Positions 6,179-60,643 of a stretch of 64,000 bases of DNA are shown here, one piece after another (position 1 is the stretch's first letter; every line of letters starts with the position of its first letter). The position numbers were made by a program, and so were the translations under genes. Below the pieces are notes generated by a model. The model had not been told where the DNA came from. It ran no database searches and saw only the letters and a program-made list of their open reading frames with translations. Origin of the DNA: Streptomyces sp. 71268 (GTDB taxonomy: Bacteria > Actinomycetota > Actinomycetes > Streptomycetales > Streptomycetaceae); contig NZ_CP114200.1 of NCBI RefSeq assembly GCF_029392895.1, forward strand, positions 2,015,001-2,079,000. The letters are read 5' to 3'.

Positions 6179-8575
<2,397 letters not shown>

Positions 8576-24405: not shown

Positions 24406-24461
24406 CACGGGGCACGGGGCACGGGGCACGGGGCACGGGGCACGGGGCACGGGGCACGGGG
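24406..24461. repeat. heptamer array, GGGGCAC x8
   Basis: Eight perfect CACGGGG units on the plus strand, 50 bp downstream of the second mycosin's stop. A decayed stretch of GGAGCAC/GGAGCGC-like units stands at about 24339-24381. Eight G4 tracts with 3-nt CAC loops fit the G-quadruplex pattern on the plus strand. The remaining spacer to 24083 holds nothing else I can identify. Confidence 0.95.
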
Positions 24462-24510
24462 CAGTGTCGACGAGACGGGGCGTACGGGGCGAGGGTGCCG
24501 TTGCCGGGGG

Positions 24511-25818: not shown

Positions 25819-25926
25819 CGTCGTTCGTCCCTCTCCCGTGTTCCCGTTCCTACGCCCCGGAGCGCGGCGCCCCGTGCCCCGTCGCCGCGCGGACGCCCCC
25901 CGGCGCCCGCCCCCGCCGCCGCTCCG

Positions 25927-26104
25927 CCCCGTGCCCCGTGCCCCGTGCCCCGTGCCCCGTGCCCCGTGCCCCGTGCCCCGTGCCCCCAGGCAGGATCACC
26001 GCTCCGTGCTCCGTGCTCCGTGCTCCGTGCTCCGTGCTCCGTGCTCCGTGCTCCGTGCTCCGTGCTCCGTGCTCCGTGCTCCGTGCTCCCGGGCAGGATC
26101 GCCG
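25927..26104 (+). repeat. composite heptamer element: (CCCCGTG)8 - linker - (CTCCGTG)12 - linker
   Basis: Eight CCCCGTG units (25927-25982), the linker CCCCCAGGCAGGATCACCG (25983-26001), twelve CTCCGTG units (26002-26085) and a second linker-like CTCCCGGGCAGGATCGCCG (26086-26104). Two more loose CCCCGTG units lie at 25869-25882. It fills the eccB-mycosin spacer and ends 16 bp after the eccB stop. This is the clearest full copy of the element. Strand is given for the CCCCGTG-first polarity. Confidence 0.95.
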
Positions 26105-35825: not shown

Positions 35826-35960
35826 TGTGCCCGCTCCTCACCCGAACTCTTGTCTGTCCAATGACGCAGGTCTAAGACTGCCATGCCCACGTCCCGTCCC
35901 CGCCATCACCCACCCGTCCCCGCACGCCCCGGGCTCACCCACCGCGGGAGCCTGCCAGGG

Positions 35961-35988
35961 CTCCGTGCTCCGTGCTCCGTGCTCCGAG
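35961..35988. repeat. short heptamer array, CTCCGTG x3 plus CTCCGAG
   Basis: Three perfect units and one degenerate unit on the plus strand, in the truB-ribF spacer (both genes on the minus strand). It is the shortest CTCCGTG array in the window and has no CCCCGTG module or linker beside it. Confidence 0.85.
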
Positions 35989-38146: not shown

Positions 38147-41100
38147 TCAGCCGCGCGGCTTCTCCCGCATCTCGTACGTCGCGATGACGTCGTCGACCTT
38201 GATGTCGTTGAAGTTGCCGAGGTTGATACCACCCTCGAACCCTTCGCGGATCTCGGTGACGTCGTCCTTGAAGCGGCGCAGGCCCTCGATGTTGAGGTTC
38301 TCCGCCACGACCTTGCCGTCGCGCAGCAGGCGTGCCTTGGTGTTGCGCTTGACCTCGCCGGAGCGGATGAGGACACCCGCGATGTTGCCGAGCTTGGAGG
38401 AGCGGAAGACCTCGCGGATCTCCGCCGTGCCCAGCTCGACCTCTTCGTACTCCGGCTTGAGCATGCCCTTGAGGGCCGCCTCGATCTCCTCGATCACCTG
38501 GTAGATGACCGAGTAGTACCGGACGTCGACACCCTCGCGCTCGGCCGCCGACGTGGCGCGGCCCTCGGCCCGCACGTTGAAGCCGATGACGATGGCGTCG
38601 GAGCCCGCCGCCAGGTCGATGTCGGTCTCGGTGACCGCACCCACACCGCGGTGCAGGATGCGCAGGTCCACCTCTTCGCCGACGTCGAGCTGGAGCAGCG
38701 AGGACTCCAGGGCCTCGACCGAACCGGACGCGTCGCCCTTGATGATGAGGTTGAGCTGCTGCACCTCGCCGGCCTTGAGCACCTTGTCCAGGTCCTCCAG
38801 GGAGACCCGGCGGGTGCGCTTGGCGAACGCGGCGTTGCGCTCGCGGGCCGCACGCTTCTCGGCGATCTGCCGAGCCGTCCGGTCCTCGTCGACGACCAGG
38901 AAGTTGTCGCCAGCGCCCGGCACGTTGGTCAGACCGAGCACCAGGACCGGGGTCGAGGGGCCGGCCTCTTCGAGCTGGGCGCCGGTGTCGTCGAGCATCG
39001 CCCGGACCCTGCCGTACGCGTCGCCCGCCACCATCGTGTCGCCGACGCGCAGGGTGCCGCGCTGGACCAGCACGGTGGCCACGGCGCCACGGCCACGGTC
39101 GAGGTGGGCCTCGATCGCGATGCCCTGCGCGTCCTGCTCCGCGTTGGCGCGCAGGTCGAGCGAGGCGTCAGCGGTCAGGACGACCGCCTCCAGGAGCTGG
39201 TCGATGTTGAGGCCCTGACGCGCGGAGATGTCGACGAACATGGTGTCGCCGCCGTACTCCTCGGCCACCAGACCGAACTCGGTGAGCTGACCGCGCACCT
39301 TGGTCGGGTCGGCACCCTCGACGTCGATCTTGTTCACCGCGACCACGATCGGCACGTCGGCCGCCTTGGCGTGGTTGAGCGCCTCGATCGTCTGCGGCAT
39401 CACACCGTCGTTGGCGGCCACCACGAGGATCGCGATGTCCGTCGACTTCGCACCACGGGCACGCATGGCGGTGAACGCCTCGTGACCCGGGGTGTCGATG
39501 AAGGTGATCTTGCGCTCTTCGTTGTTGACCTCGGTCGAGACCTGGTACGCACCGATGTGCTGGGTGATGCCACCAGCCTCGCCCGCGACCACGTTGGTCT
39601 TGCGGATCGCGTCGAGCAGTCGCGTCTTACCGTGGTCGACGTGACCCATGACGGTCACCACCGGCGGACGCGCGACGAGCATGTCCTCGCCGCCCTCGTT
39701 CTCGCCGAACTCGATGTCGAAGGACTCGAGCAGCTCGCGGTCCTCCTCCTCCGGGCTGACGATCTCGACGTTGTAGTTCATCTCGTCGGCGAGGAGCTGC
39801 AGCGTCTCGTCCGAGACCGACTGGGTCGCGGTGACCATCTCACCGAGGTTGAGCATCACGGCGACGAGCGACGCCGGGTTGGCGTTGATCTTCTCCGCGA
39901 AGTCGGTGAGCGAGGCACCACGCGACAGGCGGACGGTCTGTCCGTTGCCGCGCGGCAGCATCACGCCGCCGACCGACGGGGCCTGCATGGCCTCGTACTC
40001 CTGGCGCCGCTGCCGCTTCGACTTGCGACCGCGCCGCGCCGGACCGCCGGGACGACCGAACGCGCCCTGCGTGCCACCACGGCCACCCGGGCCACCGGGA
40101 CGACCGCCGAAGCCGGGACGGCCACCGAAGCCGCCGCCACCGCCACCGGGACGACCGGCGAAACCGCCGCCGCCACCGGGACGACCGCCGCCACCGCCAC
40201 CACCGGGACGACCGGCGAAACCGCCGCCGCCACCGGGACGGCCAGCGCCACCGCCACCACCGGGGCGACCAGCGCCACCGGGGCCACGACCGCCGCCACC
40301 GGGGCCCGGACGCGGACCCGCGGCCGGACGCTGCGGCATCATGCCCGGGTTCGGACGGTTACCACCGGGGCCACCAGGGCCGCCACCGGGACGCGGGACG
40401 CCGCCGGGGCCGCTCTGCGGACGGGGCATCGAGCCGGGGCTCGGACGGGCGCCGCTCGGACCGGGACGCGGACCGGCGTGACCGCCCTGACCGCCACCCT
40501 GCGGGCGCGGACCACCCTGGCTCTGACCACCGGGGCCGGGCCGCGGGCCACCCGGACGGGGCGCCTGCGGGCGGGACATGCCGGTGCTGCCGCCGGAGGT
40601 GAAGGGGTTGTTGCCCGGGCGCGGGCCGGAGGGGCGCCCGCCCGGACGGGGAGCGCCACCCTGGCCGCCGGGACGCGGCGCGCCGGAGCGCCCGCCACCC
40701 TGACCCTGACCGCCGCCCTGACCGGGCGTGCTGGGACGGGCGCTGGGACGCGGGCCCGGCGTCGCGCCGGGCTTGGCGCCACTGGGCCTGGGGGACGCGG
40801 CCGGAGCCGCGGGGGGCGCGGTGAACTCGGGCTGCGCCGGCGCGGACGGCGCCGCCGGGGCGGGGCCGGGGCGCGGAGCCGAGGCCGGCGTCGGGCTCTT
40901 CGGGCCCGGAGTGGGGCGCGGACCCGGCGTGGGGGCCGCACCAGTGCCGCCCGCGGGACCGCTCGACGCCGGCTTGGGGCCGGGCGTCGGGGCCTTCGGG
41001 GCAGCGGGACGGGCCGCCTGCGGAGACGGCGCAGACGGCTTGGCGGGCGACGCCTTGCGCGGCGCCGCGGGCTTGCCAGCGGAACGGCCGGAACCGTTGC

Positions 41101-41689: not shown

Positions 41690-41860
41690 TGTTTTAGTCT
41701 ACCTCCCCGCGTCGACCCCACCCGTTTAGGGCAACGATCGAACGGTCGTCGTTATGCCGCTTCGCTGAGCCCGTCGCTCGCTCGGCGACGACTCCGCGTT
41801 CCTGGTGCCGCACAGCGTGCGACACCGGCCCACCAACCGGACACGGCCGGCATCCAGCCG

Positions 41861-42047
41861 CCCCGTGCCCCGTGCCCCGTGCCCCGTGCCCCGTGCCCCG
41901 TGCCCCGTGCCCCGTGCCCCGTGCCCCGTGCCCCGTGCCCCCAGGCAGCATCGCCGCTCCGTGCTCCGTGCTCCGTGCTCCGTGCTCCGTGCTCCGTGCT
42001 CCGTGCTCCGTGCTCCGTGCTCCGTGCTCCGTGCTCCGGCCAGTCTC
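41861..42047 (+). repeat. composite heptamer element: (CCCCGTG)11 - linker - (CTCCGTG)12
   Basis: Eleven CCCCGTG units (41861-41937), the linker CCCCCAGGCAGCATCGCCG (41938-41956) and twelve CTCCGTG units (41957-42040), ending in CTCCGGC. It lies in the nusA-ylxR spacer, 170 bp upstream of ylxR. It has the same order and nearly the same linker as the element at 25927. Confidence 0.96.
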
Positions 42048-45108: not shown

Positions 45109-45192
45109 CACGGAGCACGGAGCACGGAGCACGGAGCACGGAGCACGGAGCACGGAGCACGGAGCACGGAGCACGGAGCACGGAGCACGGAG
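45109..45192 (-). repeat. heptamer array, GGAGCAC (CTCCGTG) x12
   Basis: Twelve perfect CACGGAG units on the plus strand between the lipoprotein and the ferritin-like gene, both on the plus strand. It has no CCCCGTG module or linker. Twelve units is also the count in the two large composite elements. Confidence 0.95.
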
Positions 45193-45283
45193 CATCCGAC
45201 GATGACGGGCTGACGTGCCGCACCGCAAGTCAGGGACGAGACGAACCGCGCAGTGGACGGGACATGGCAGAAAGGTCGCCCAT

Positions 45284-46012: not shown

Positions 46013-46047
46013 CACGGGGCACGGGGCACGGGGCACGGGGCACGGGG
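46013..46047. repeat. heptamer array, GGGGCAC x5
   Basis: Five perfect CACGGGG units between the ferritin-like and APH-fold genes, both on the plus strand. Five G4 tracts lie on the coding strand, so the transcript itself would carry the G-rich form. The rest of the 372-bp spacer shows no gene. Confidence 0.93.
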
Positions 46048-46219
46048 CAGGCTAATCGTCGGTGAGCAGGTGCGAGAGCGGGACGTCCGGGAGGTGCGCG
46101 TGCACGCCTCGTTCCGCGCAGCGGAGGCAGACTGTCGCCGCACGGTGGCGGGCCGCACTGGGGCGGCGGGGCACGTTCGTACGCGGCACCGTCAGGTAAC
46201 GGAAAGGGACAGCTCGGGA

Positions 46220-47173: not shown

Positions 47174-47199
47174 CAGCCTCCCGCTCCGTGCATCCATCG

Positions 47200-47253
47200 C
47201 CCCGTGCCCCGTGCTCCGTGTCCGCCGCAGAGCACGGAGCACGGGGTACGGGG
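47200..47253. terminator. bidirectional hairpin built of inverted heptamers
   Basis: CCCCGTG, CCCCGTG and CTCCGTG (47200-47220) face CACGGAG, CACGGGG and TACGGGG (47233-47253), giving a 21-bp stem with one T-G pair and a 12-nt loop. It lies 27 bp after the APH-fold stop and 57 bp after the proS stop, between convergent genes. It is the only place where heptamers are inverted. Confidence 0.85.
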
Positions 47254-49022: not shown

Positions 49023-49097
49023 GGGGATCTCCTGCGTGCGAGGTGCGGTGAGCGAGAGGTTAGCCGGAGCGGGTCACGCCGAGGAAATGAGTCGCGG

Positions 49098-49266
49098 CCC
49101 CGTGCCCCCGAGCAGGAGCCGCCCCGTGCCCCGTGCCCCGTGCCCCGTGCCCCGTGCCCCGTGCCCCGTGCCCCGTGCCCCGTGCCCCGTGCCCCGTGCC
49201 CCGTGCCCCGTGCCCCGTGCCCCGTGCCCCGTGCCCCGTGCCCCCAGGCAGGATCGCCGCTCCGTG
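49098..49266 (+). repeat. composite heptamer element: CCCCGTG - linker - (CCCCGTG)17 - linker - CTCCGTG
   Basis: One CCCCGTG unit (49098-49104) and a variant linker CCCCCGAGCAGGAGCCG (49105-49121) precede seventeen CCCCGTG units (49122-49240). The linker CCCCCAGGCAGGATCGCCG (49241-49259) and a single CTCCGTG (49260-49266) follow. This is the longest CCCCGTG array, with an almost lost second module. It lies between proS and a GNAT gene, both on the minus strand. Confidence 0.96.
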
Positions 49267-55597: not shown

Positions 55598-55693
55598 GCC
55601 CGTGCTCCGTGCCCCCAGGCAGGATCACCGCTCCGTGCTCCGTGCTCCGTGCTCCGTGCTCCGTGCTCCGTGCTCCGTGCTCCGTGCTCCGTG
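55598..55693 (+). repeat. composite heptamer element: decayed module - linker - (CTCCGTG)9
   Basis: A degenerate GCCCGTG and one CTCCGTG (55598-55611), the linker CCCCCAGGCAGGATCACCG (55612-55630), identical to the one at 25983, and nine CTCCGTG units (55631-55693) ending in CTCCGGC. It lies between dxr and the acyl-CoA dehydrogenase pseudogene, both on the minus strand. The first module is almost lost here. Confidence 0.95.
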
Positions 55694-55932
55694 CTCCGGC
55701 GGGACTGTGCCGCGGGTGGTCCGTGCGTGGGAAGCGGTACGGCGCGTGGGCGGCAGGCGAAGTGGGCGGATCTGGGCGCGACGTACGCACACCCGTGGGG
55801 CGGGCCGCACTCCTACATGCCGGCCCCGTACGCCCGGTATGCCGGGCGTCGCCAGGATGCGGCGTATTGCTGTGCGGCGTAGCGCGGTGCTGTCAGCGTG
55901 CGCGGGAGGCGGGGTGGGTAGCGAGAGGCGCG

Positions 55933-58255: not shown

Positions 58256-58370
58256 CACGGAGCACGGAGCACGGAGCACGGAGCACGGAGCACGGAGCGA
58301 TGGTCCTGCCGGGGCACGGGGCACGGGGCACGGGGCACGGGGCACGGGGCACGGGGCACGGGGCACGGGG
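58256..58370 (-). repeat. composite heptamer element in reverse: (GGAGCAC)6 - linker - (GGGGCAC)8
   Basis: Six CACGGAG units (58256-58297), a 17-nt linker CGATGGTCCTGCCGGGG (58298-58314) and eight CACGGGG units (58315-58370) on the plus strand. Read on the minus strand this is (CCCCGTG)8 - CCCCGGCAGGACCATCG - (CTCCGTG)6, the same polarity as the other copies with a divergent linker. It lies in the ALDH-pseudogene spacer. The remaining spacer (57892-58604) has no gene. Confidence 0.95.
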
Positions 58371-58604
58371 CCAGCGTGCGGGAGCCGGAGGGGGCACGGG
58401 GGTGGGGCGCGGCAGGGGGCGGAGTGGGCAGGGGCCCGGACGCGAGCGGTGCCTCATCGCGCGGGGCGTTGGGAACGGAGCGACGGCTGGAGCGAGGTGT
58501 TCACTCCAGCCGTCGCCTGCACCGCCATGGTGACTTCGGCGCCAGTTCCTCGATGCCGAGCCTGCCGTCGGCCTCGTACTGAACTGTCGAACCGCCGAAT
58601 CGCC

Positions 58605-60420: not shown

Positions 60421-60469
60421 CACGGGGCACGGGGCACGGGGCACGGGGCACGGGGCACGGGGCACGGGG
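60421..60469. repeat. heptamer array, GGGGCAC x7
   Basis: Seven perfect CACGGGG units on the plus strand in the 578-bp spacer between the PucR-type gene and the ALDH gene, both on the minus strand. No linker or CTCCGTG module is attached. I see no gene in the spacer. Confidence 0.95.
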
Positions 60470-60643
60470 CAACGCGCGAAGGCGGCGTGCGGGCACGGGG
60501 ACATTCGAGATTGGCCCGCTCGGCAACGCGTCACGCACCTCGGCGTCTGCCGTACGGGCCTTGCCAGCTCCAATGCCGTCAGCGCGCTCGCGGTCCCTTG
60601 GTGGGCGGTCACTGGTCAGCCGTACAGCGACCCGCGTGCGCGG

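Follow-up and report, generated by a model that had tools for sequence, protein, structure and literature searches.

The described sequences that come closest to those reported here are the heptamer repeats of GGGNATC type, rich in G, of Xanthomonas and Nostoc. These repeats are reported to be mostly non-coding, to comprise 2–26 units with a preference for four, to occur all over the genome, to be under-represented between divergent genes and to lie between the same genes in relatives while the unit number changes; repeats of this kind fold into G-quadruplexes in vitro (PMC4692102). Other bacterial satellites include the (GATAGRA)n family of Chloroflexus aurantiacus and the satellites of Clostridioides difficile, which cluster in two regions (PMC6749651). 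The TAACTGA direct repeats of Beggiatoaceae form many intergenic heptamer repeat sets (PMC4679880). Finally, the clt loci of Streptomyces plasmids carry direct repeats of 7–9 bp that are recognized by TraB, an FtsK-like translocase, and similar sequences are reported from the chromosomes of Streptomyces as well (PMC4170104, PMC3583192).

The chromosome of Streptomyces sp. 71268 carries heptamer repeats that share with the Xanthomonas/Nostoc kind a tandem seven-base unit, a G-run on one strand, a mostly non-coding location, retention between the same genes in relatives and a variable unit number (PMC4692102). They differ from it in being confined to one field of the chromosome instead of spread genome-wide, in having two unit types, one of which (B) gives no G-run of three, in carrying a polar shared linker and in the enrichment of the single unit in genes. 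Their avoidance of divergent spacers is only a tendency (arrays in 3 of 31 divergent spacers versus 35 of 153 others, Fisher 0.14). The satellites of C. aurantiacus and C. difficile offer a parallel for a heptamer-derived family and a precedent for regional clustering, but the C. difficile clusters consist of unrelated satellites with long repeats, whereas here one heptamer family fills the field (PMC6749651). Many intergenic heptamer sets are common to the Beggiatoaceae repeats and to the present ones, although the unit differs (PMC4679880). Short direct repeats are likewise common to the clt loci (PMC4170104, PMC3583192), but the repeat sequences differ and composite 1 (see below) has no plasmid match. 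No paper on this heptamer/linker element was found in the open-licence literature.

The window, i.e. the whole stretch of 64,000 nucleotides that was analysed, corresponds to positions 2,015,001–2,079,000 of a single-contig chromosome of 8,379,354 bp. The array units, A (GCCCCGT) and B (GCTCCGT), are one base apart; GCCCCGT is taken as the natural phase because only two arrays of at least three units genome-wide follow a base other than G. On the opposite strand, A reads as runs of GGGGCAC and B gives GG only. A preliminary description had proposed that five sites of the window carry a composite in the fixed order A – linker – B with a common linker. The order is strict at four of them, site 4 having a B unit before its linker, and a linker close to the proposed one is found at four sites too (not the same four), that of site 5 being different and 17 bp long. 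The positions were right to about 1 bp, except at site 4, where only degenerate sequence starts at 55,598 and the linker is preceded by one degenerate unit and one B unit. The composite does exist, but it belongs to a larger feature; on the other strand, most simple A arrays lack the linker (Table 1).

Table 1. Heptamer arrays and composites of the window (A, GCCCCGT; B, GCTCCGT; numbers after A and B are units)
Feature	Position in window	Strand	Remark
Site 1, A array (GCCCCGT)8	25,926–25,981	+	read directly
Site 1, linker GCCCCCAGGCAGGATCACC	25,982–26,000	+	read directly
Site 1, B array (GCTCCGT)12	26,001–26,084	+	read directly
Site 1, second linker-like sequence GCTCCCGGGCAGGATCGCCG 3' of the B array	26,085–26,104	+
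Site 2, composite: A11, linker GCCCCCAGGCAGCATCGCC with GCATCG, B11	41,860–42,032	+	between called nusA and infB
Site 3, composite: A1, degenerate linker, A17, linker with GATCGCC, B1	49,097–49,265	+	upstream of proS
Site 4, composite without true A array: one B unit, linker, B9, trailer GCTCCGGCGGGACTGTGCCGCGG	55,604–55,715	+	upstream of dxr
Site 5, inverted composite: A8, variant 17-bp linker GCCCCGGCAGGACCATC, B6	58,257–58,371	-
Simple A8 array without linker	24,407–24,462	-
Simple B12 array	45,110–45,193	-	orthologous S. buecherae site is A8
Simple A5 array	46,014–46,048	-
Simple A7 array	60,422–60,470	-
Short B3 array	35,960–35,980	+
Short AAB array	47,199–47,219	+
Short BAAA array	7,056–7,083	-

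The second linker-like sequence of site 1, GCTCCCGGGCAGGATCGCCG, is also present at the orthologous site of S. philanthi and, with one change, at that of S. buecherae. The genes adjoining the composites of the window include infB, nusA, proS, dxr and the type VII secretion genes for EccB and mycosin. The infB call (38,147–39,988) is probably too short; longer-period repeats (27, 30 and 57 bp) lie about 90 bp beyond it at 40,079–40,306 and may be an unread N-terminal part of infB. A structured RNA at the linker was considered and rejected, as three stretches of 46–56 bases around the site 1 linkers show nothing unusual (fold z-scores of -0.49, 0.37 and -0.02) and Rfam gives no match there. At gathering thresholds, the only Rfam matches in the window are 16S rRNA and an Actino-pnp RNA leader (RF01688; 10,883–10,943, minus strand).

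The arrays are almost entirely restricted to a field of about 360 kb, at 1.947–2.31 Mb of the 8.38-Mb chromosome, with edges near 1.947 and 2.305–2.31 Mb. When any four consecutive units (A or B) are searched for genome-wide, 181 forward and 62 reverse matches are obtained, overlaps included, of which 180 and 61, respectively, lie in the 400 kb at 1.9–2.3 Mb (4.8% of the genome). Tandem Repeats Finder detects 56 period-7 arrays in these 400 kb, 54 of them made of units A/B, which is far above chance: 400 kb on the other arm contain two such arrays and the orthologous 400 kb of an outgroup Streptomyces contain one, none of them A/B. The single heptamer follows the same field even when arrays are masked, being 2.15–5.23 times its Markov expectation in 17 of the 19 20-kb pieces at 1.94–2.32 Mb. 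The other two (1.66 and 0.53 times) contain a stretch around an rRNA operon. The field has sharp edges and, around this operon, an internal gap. Among the 80 pieces examined, the heptamer is also raised in the four at 2.46–2.54 Mb (2.13–3.90 times), and the remaining 57 range from 0.44 to 1.67 times. This second, smaller stretch holds four arrays of at least three units, within or close to reading frames of great length (as much as 16 kb) that would be PKS/NRPS-like judging by their length only. The field itself holds core genes, such as infB, nusA, proS, dxr and type VII secretion genes.

Within the field, the arrays are mostly non-coding. According to gene calls predicted in this analysis from codon usage, 64 of 68 arrays of at least three units lie outside genes (44 between tandem, 13 between convergent and 7 between divergent genes), and an array of at least four units is found in 38 of the 184 field spacers of at least 60 bp. 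The longest arrays seen have up to 29 units. In forward arrays of at least four units that end in B, GCTCCGG comes next, often inside a trailer near GCTCCGGCGGGATGGTGCCGCGG, in 5 of 12 cases here, 9 of 20 in S. buecherae and 4 of 5 in S. philanthi. Two arrays have an eight-base unit, (GCTCCGTG)22 at genome position 1,979,743 and (GCCCCCGT)7 at 2,153,812.

The preliminary description held that the composite had probably been copied or is under selection. Copying is borne out: the linker pattern GCCCCCRGGCAGGATCRCCGC (at most 2 mismatches) is found genome-wide at 18 places, all forward and within 0.17 Mb, and the same polarity recurs in two other species. In S. buecherae 18 copies have one orientation and a single copy the opposite one; in S. 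philanthi nine copies agree and the only opposite match is a distant one. Moreover, 51–62 bp (extended linker or trailer) are common to the two members of each of three site pairs, and some linkers have a longer form common to several sites. Dispersed copies with one polarity are found, but only within one chromosome field. The association of the linker core with heptamers is also a property of the field. Of the 36 exact copies of GCAGGATCRCCG in the genome, 15 belong to the field, are all forward and, for 14 of them, have 3–15 heptamer units within 60 bp, whereas the 21 others have no fixed strand (9 forward, 12 reverse) and none of the 15 examined among them has a unit within 60 bp on either strand. 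With a 20-base linker allowing up to 4 mismatches, the 400 kb give 22 forward and no reverse matches, versus one in each of two 400-kb controls. Units directly precede 20 of these 22 fuzzy linkers, 21 of 23 in S. buecherae and 7 of 11 in S. philanthi; the full two-sided composite is not the rule, as units flank both sides of only 15 of 22, 12 of 23 and 5 of 11 linkers, respectively.

Selection on the linker finds less support. Orthologous linkers are 0.933 identical in one species comparison (12 sites) and 0.912 in the other (8 sites), versus 0.930 in 123 and 0.933 in 97 array-free spacers, respectively, although taking linkers at up to 4 mismatches and the closest pair per spacer favours high values. 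The linker as a whole thus appears to change between species at the ordinary spacer rate. Linkers of different sites within one genome are less alike (0.861, 0.854 and 0.839 in the three species) than orthologous ones, which indicates that the spread mostly predates the separation of the species. By contrast, the AGGATC columns depart from the consensus in 6 of 336 cells versus 96 of 784 in the 14 other columns of 56 linkers (Fisher 6e-10, with rows that are not independent). A constraint on this core is possible, and its lower variation speaks against a linker that is purely a passenger. GGCAGGATCACC resembles the 3' end of 16S rRNA; this likeness was set aside as chance, 24 of the 56 linkers having G at the A of GATCACC.

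Collinear blocks with the same field and the same polarity are found in S. buecherae and S. philanthi (median amino-acid identities of reciprocal best hits between blocks of 97.8, 97.0 and 96.5%). Among 294 congeners searched with a 29-base pattern (at most 2 mismatches), the linker was found only in S. buecherae, and 6 of 295 Streptomyces genomes (own included) have any five-unit array, four of the six having two matches each. An exact 23-letter pattern searched in a collection of 84,980 species, which may leave out the window's own genome, gave 13 stretches: 9 from S. buecherae, 3 from S. philanthi and 1 from a member of Phycisphaerales, which has no heptamers within 110 bp. In orthologous spacers where both partners carry arrays of at least four units, the strand is identical in 45 of 45 pairs (30 with S. 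buecherae and 15 with S. philanthi, so that the same spacer may enter both) and the unit string in only 1 of 45. Arrays occur in one partner only in 5 spacers here versus 7 in S. buecherae, and in 11 here versus 2 in S. philanthi. At one reverse site, B12 here corresponds to A8 in S. buecherae, which is a wholesale turnover of units, and a given site may be array-only in one species and linker-bearing in another. The S. philanthi field has 23 period-7 arrays (versus 56 and 58 in the others) and a coding fraction of 0.69 (versus 0.76 and 0.78); both values would fit a symbiont with a decaying genome. Its B arrays reach 26 and 29 units, more than any others seen.

The polarity also shows in the A-ending arrays. 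By a permissive match to the linker core, linker-like sequence follows 19 of 21 forward A-ending arrays of at least four units but 1 of 15 reverse ones (Fisher 4e-7); the corresponding values are 16 of 20 versus 1 of 13 in S. buecherae and 4 of 7 versus 0 of 9 in S. philanthi. A polarity that would simply be antisense to genes was rejected, as the linker is still forward in 3 of 24 linker spacers that lie between two plus-strand genes (spacers with a fuzzy linker in any of the three species; the numbers are small and one of the three cases is likely a chance match). The field lies to the left of dnaA here (4.16 Mb) and in S. buecherae (4.24 Mb), and to the right of it in S. philanthi (3.15 Mb), where it is inverted. 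With a replication start near dnaA, which is assumed here, the lagging-strand template would carry the G-rich strand of forward arrays in each of the three species; these are not three independent observations but a single one, because the field was moved as a unit.

Taken as a whole, these data are best explained, with a probability of roughly 0.5, by a heptamer satellite specific to this clade, which multiplied locally and in a single orientation in an ancestor and is now turning over by slippage. The following scenario can be drawn. One founder cassette, A(n) – linker – B(m), would have been copied from spacer to spacer, mostly before the split of the three species, probably by recombination or by replication template switching between nearby heptamer arrays. 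Copying would have used arrays of one orientation, or one strand of the fork (with the G-rich strand as lagging-strand template), and the copies would for this reason all point the same way along the chromosome, irrespective of the direction of adjacent genes. Unit numbers would later have changed by slippage, and the linker would mainly be a passenger, the AGGATC core perhaps excepted. This scenario accounts for the location in spacers, the shared sites, the shared strand and the changing numbers, and gene order in the field matches that of the outgroup as far as compared. No copying event with both an empty site and a donor was caught in the compared species. A plasmid or viral origin was rejected, as BLAST against a plasmid collection gave no match to composite 1 (a low-complexity filter weakens this search) and an exact-pattern scan of viral contigs gave no linker match. 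The satellite leaves the sharp edges of the field unaccounted for. What speaks against it is the enrichment of single heptamers in conserved genes, which neither slippage nor cassette copying predicts; these heptamers are distributed over the whole length of the genes, and their distance to arrays is like that of random points in coding sequence (1,984 versus 1,918 bp).

These single heptamers are about threefold enriched in the genes of the field. Among genes with an outgroup orthologue, the heptamer density per kb is 1.91 and 1.63 in the two parts of the field, compared with 0.60 outside it and 0.38 in its gap; the outgroup genes have 0.26–0.51. Strongly called genes hold 374 heptamers in 212 kb inside the field (164 genes). 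The flanks, from which 2.46–2.54 Mb was excluded, have 146 in the 236 kb of their 196 strongly called genes (Mann-Whitney 9e-12); the 16 strong genes of the excluded stretch have 2.16 per kb. The rise is real, but the steps of the scenario do not explain it, and it points to an additional pressure that acts locally on the motif. Either copying might also write single units through short template switches, which would fit the satellite, or the 7-mer might be favoured there, which would fit the rival considered next.

The same enrichment favours the main rival, a domain mark, in which a putative DNA-binding protein would recognise GCNCCGT and thereby organise, segregate or move the region, arrays and composites being dense site clusters. 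Macrodomain motifs, or the repeats that guide FtsK-type translocases, would be comparable in action; such a mark is possible, though rather doubtful. Macrodomain motifs of the matS kind are over-represented in one chromosome domain, genes included, their sites are kept by selection and a dedicated protein binds them. Over-representation in one domain, genes included, is indeed observed (2.46–2.54 Mb being raised too). When strongly called field genes are compared with the flanks, A and B rank first and second of 2,823 7-mers (z 9.3 and 6.4), and GCACCGT and GCGCCGT rank 4 and 6. Against the orthologous outgroup genes, the array heptamers rank 1 and 5 of 2,552 inside the field, whereas outside it A ranks only 180 of 1,222 and B is too rare to rank; several other enriched words in this comparison are palindromes that the outgroup may avoid. 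Heptamers are also found where the outgroup amino acids are identical (96 of the 212 gene heptamers of the field), and the sharp edges, the gap around the rRNA operon and the lower variation of AGGATC all fit a mark. However, gene heptamers lie on both strands, and species differ freely in the number of units and in whether a linker is present. Moreover, the retention of gene heptamers from one species to another is slightly below that of the median 7-mer (0.74 versus 0.80; 0.78 versus 0.82), so that no purifying selection on single sites in genes is seen. In a wider form, which is to be regarded as unlikely, GCNCCGT would be a candidate field-defining signal in the genes and spacers of the 0.36-Mb stretch, read by a protein or a replication-repair process confined there, with arrays and polar composites as its densest sites. 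We know of no clade-specific, sharply bounded motif domain in the middle of a chromosome arm.

An introgressed segment, i.e. a field acquired by homologous replacement from a lineage whose whole genome is rich in the heptamer, is improbable. A mosaic of this kind would fit the sharp edges, the internal gap and the enrichment in both genes and spacers, and the nearest match outside the clade is lower for dxr inside the field (80–81%, 392 genomes) than for one gene outside (84–85%, 295 genomes). This gap is taken to reflect a probable difference between genes, introgression being another possible source of it. In a coarse comparison of two stretches with seven outgroups, no clear discordance appears: a 5.4-kb stretch outside the field gives 81–83% (four full-length matches) and, in three outgroups, pieces of 79–90%, and proS inside gives 83–85%. 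Against replacement, gene order is unbroken across the left edge relative to one outgroup (this being the edge that the comparison covered), and median amino-acid identity to the outgroup per 20 kb is 63 (3 genes), 81, 79 and 81% left of the edge and 66–87% inside. Codon usage is nearly alike inside and outside, the small excess of GCT (3.9 versus 2.4 per thousand) and CGT (6.8 versus 5.0) being what the heptamer itself would give. Lastly, the other 293 congeners include no heptamer-rich donor.

It is highly improbable that the composite is a mobile element of MITE or REP type that a transposase has inserted. The dispersal of copies and their fixed core would agree with this, and single-strand transposons of the IS200/IS605 kind are known to keep one strand with respect to replication. 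However, the copies are confined to one field with no genome-wide dispersal in both orientations, many keep their sites across species, and one and the same site can carry arrays only in one species and a linker in another; furthermore, the three short stretches around the site 1 linkers show no unusual fold and no hairpin core. Pure slippage of unrelated seeds, with linkers alike by chance, has a negligible probability: it would explain the varying numbers of heptamers but is refuted for the linker by its strand-biased excess over the controls.

The nearest described heptamer repeats are reported as spread genome-wide (PMC4692102), whereas here one family fills a single, sharply bounded stretch that holds core genes. 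A sub-chromosomal boundary thus becomes visible in sequence alone, which offers a way to test if processes such as copying, mutation or selection may act on only one portion of a bacterial chromosome. As only 1 of 45 unit strings is identical between species, the arrays should serve as fast-changing strain markers. Heptamers that fill about a third of a million bases in a few related Streptomyces and are almost absent elsewhere are an unusual form of local repeat spread.
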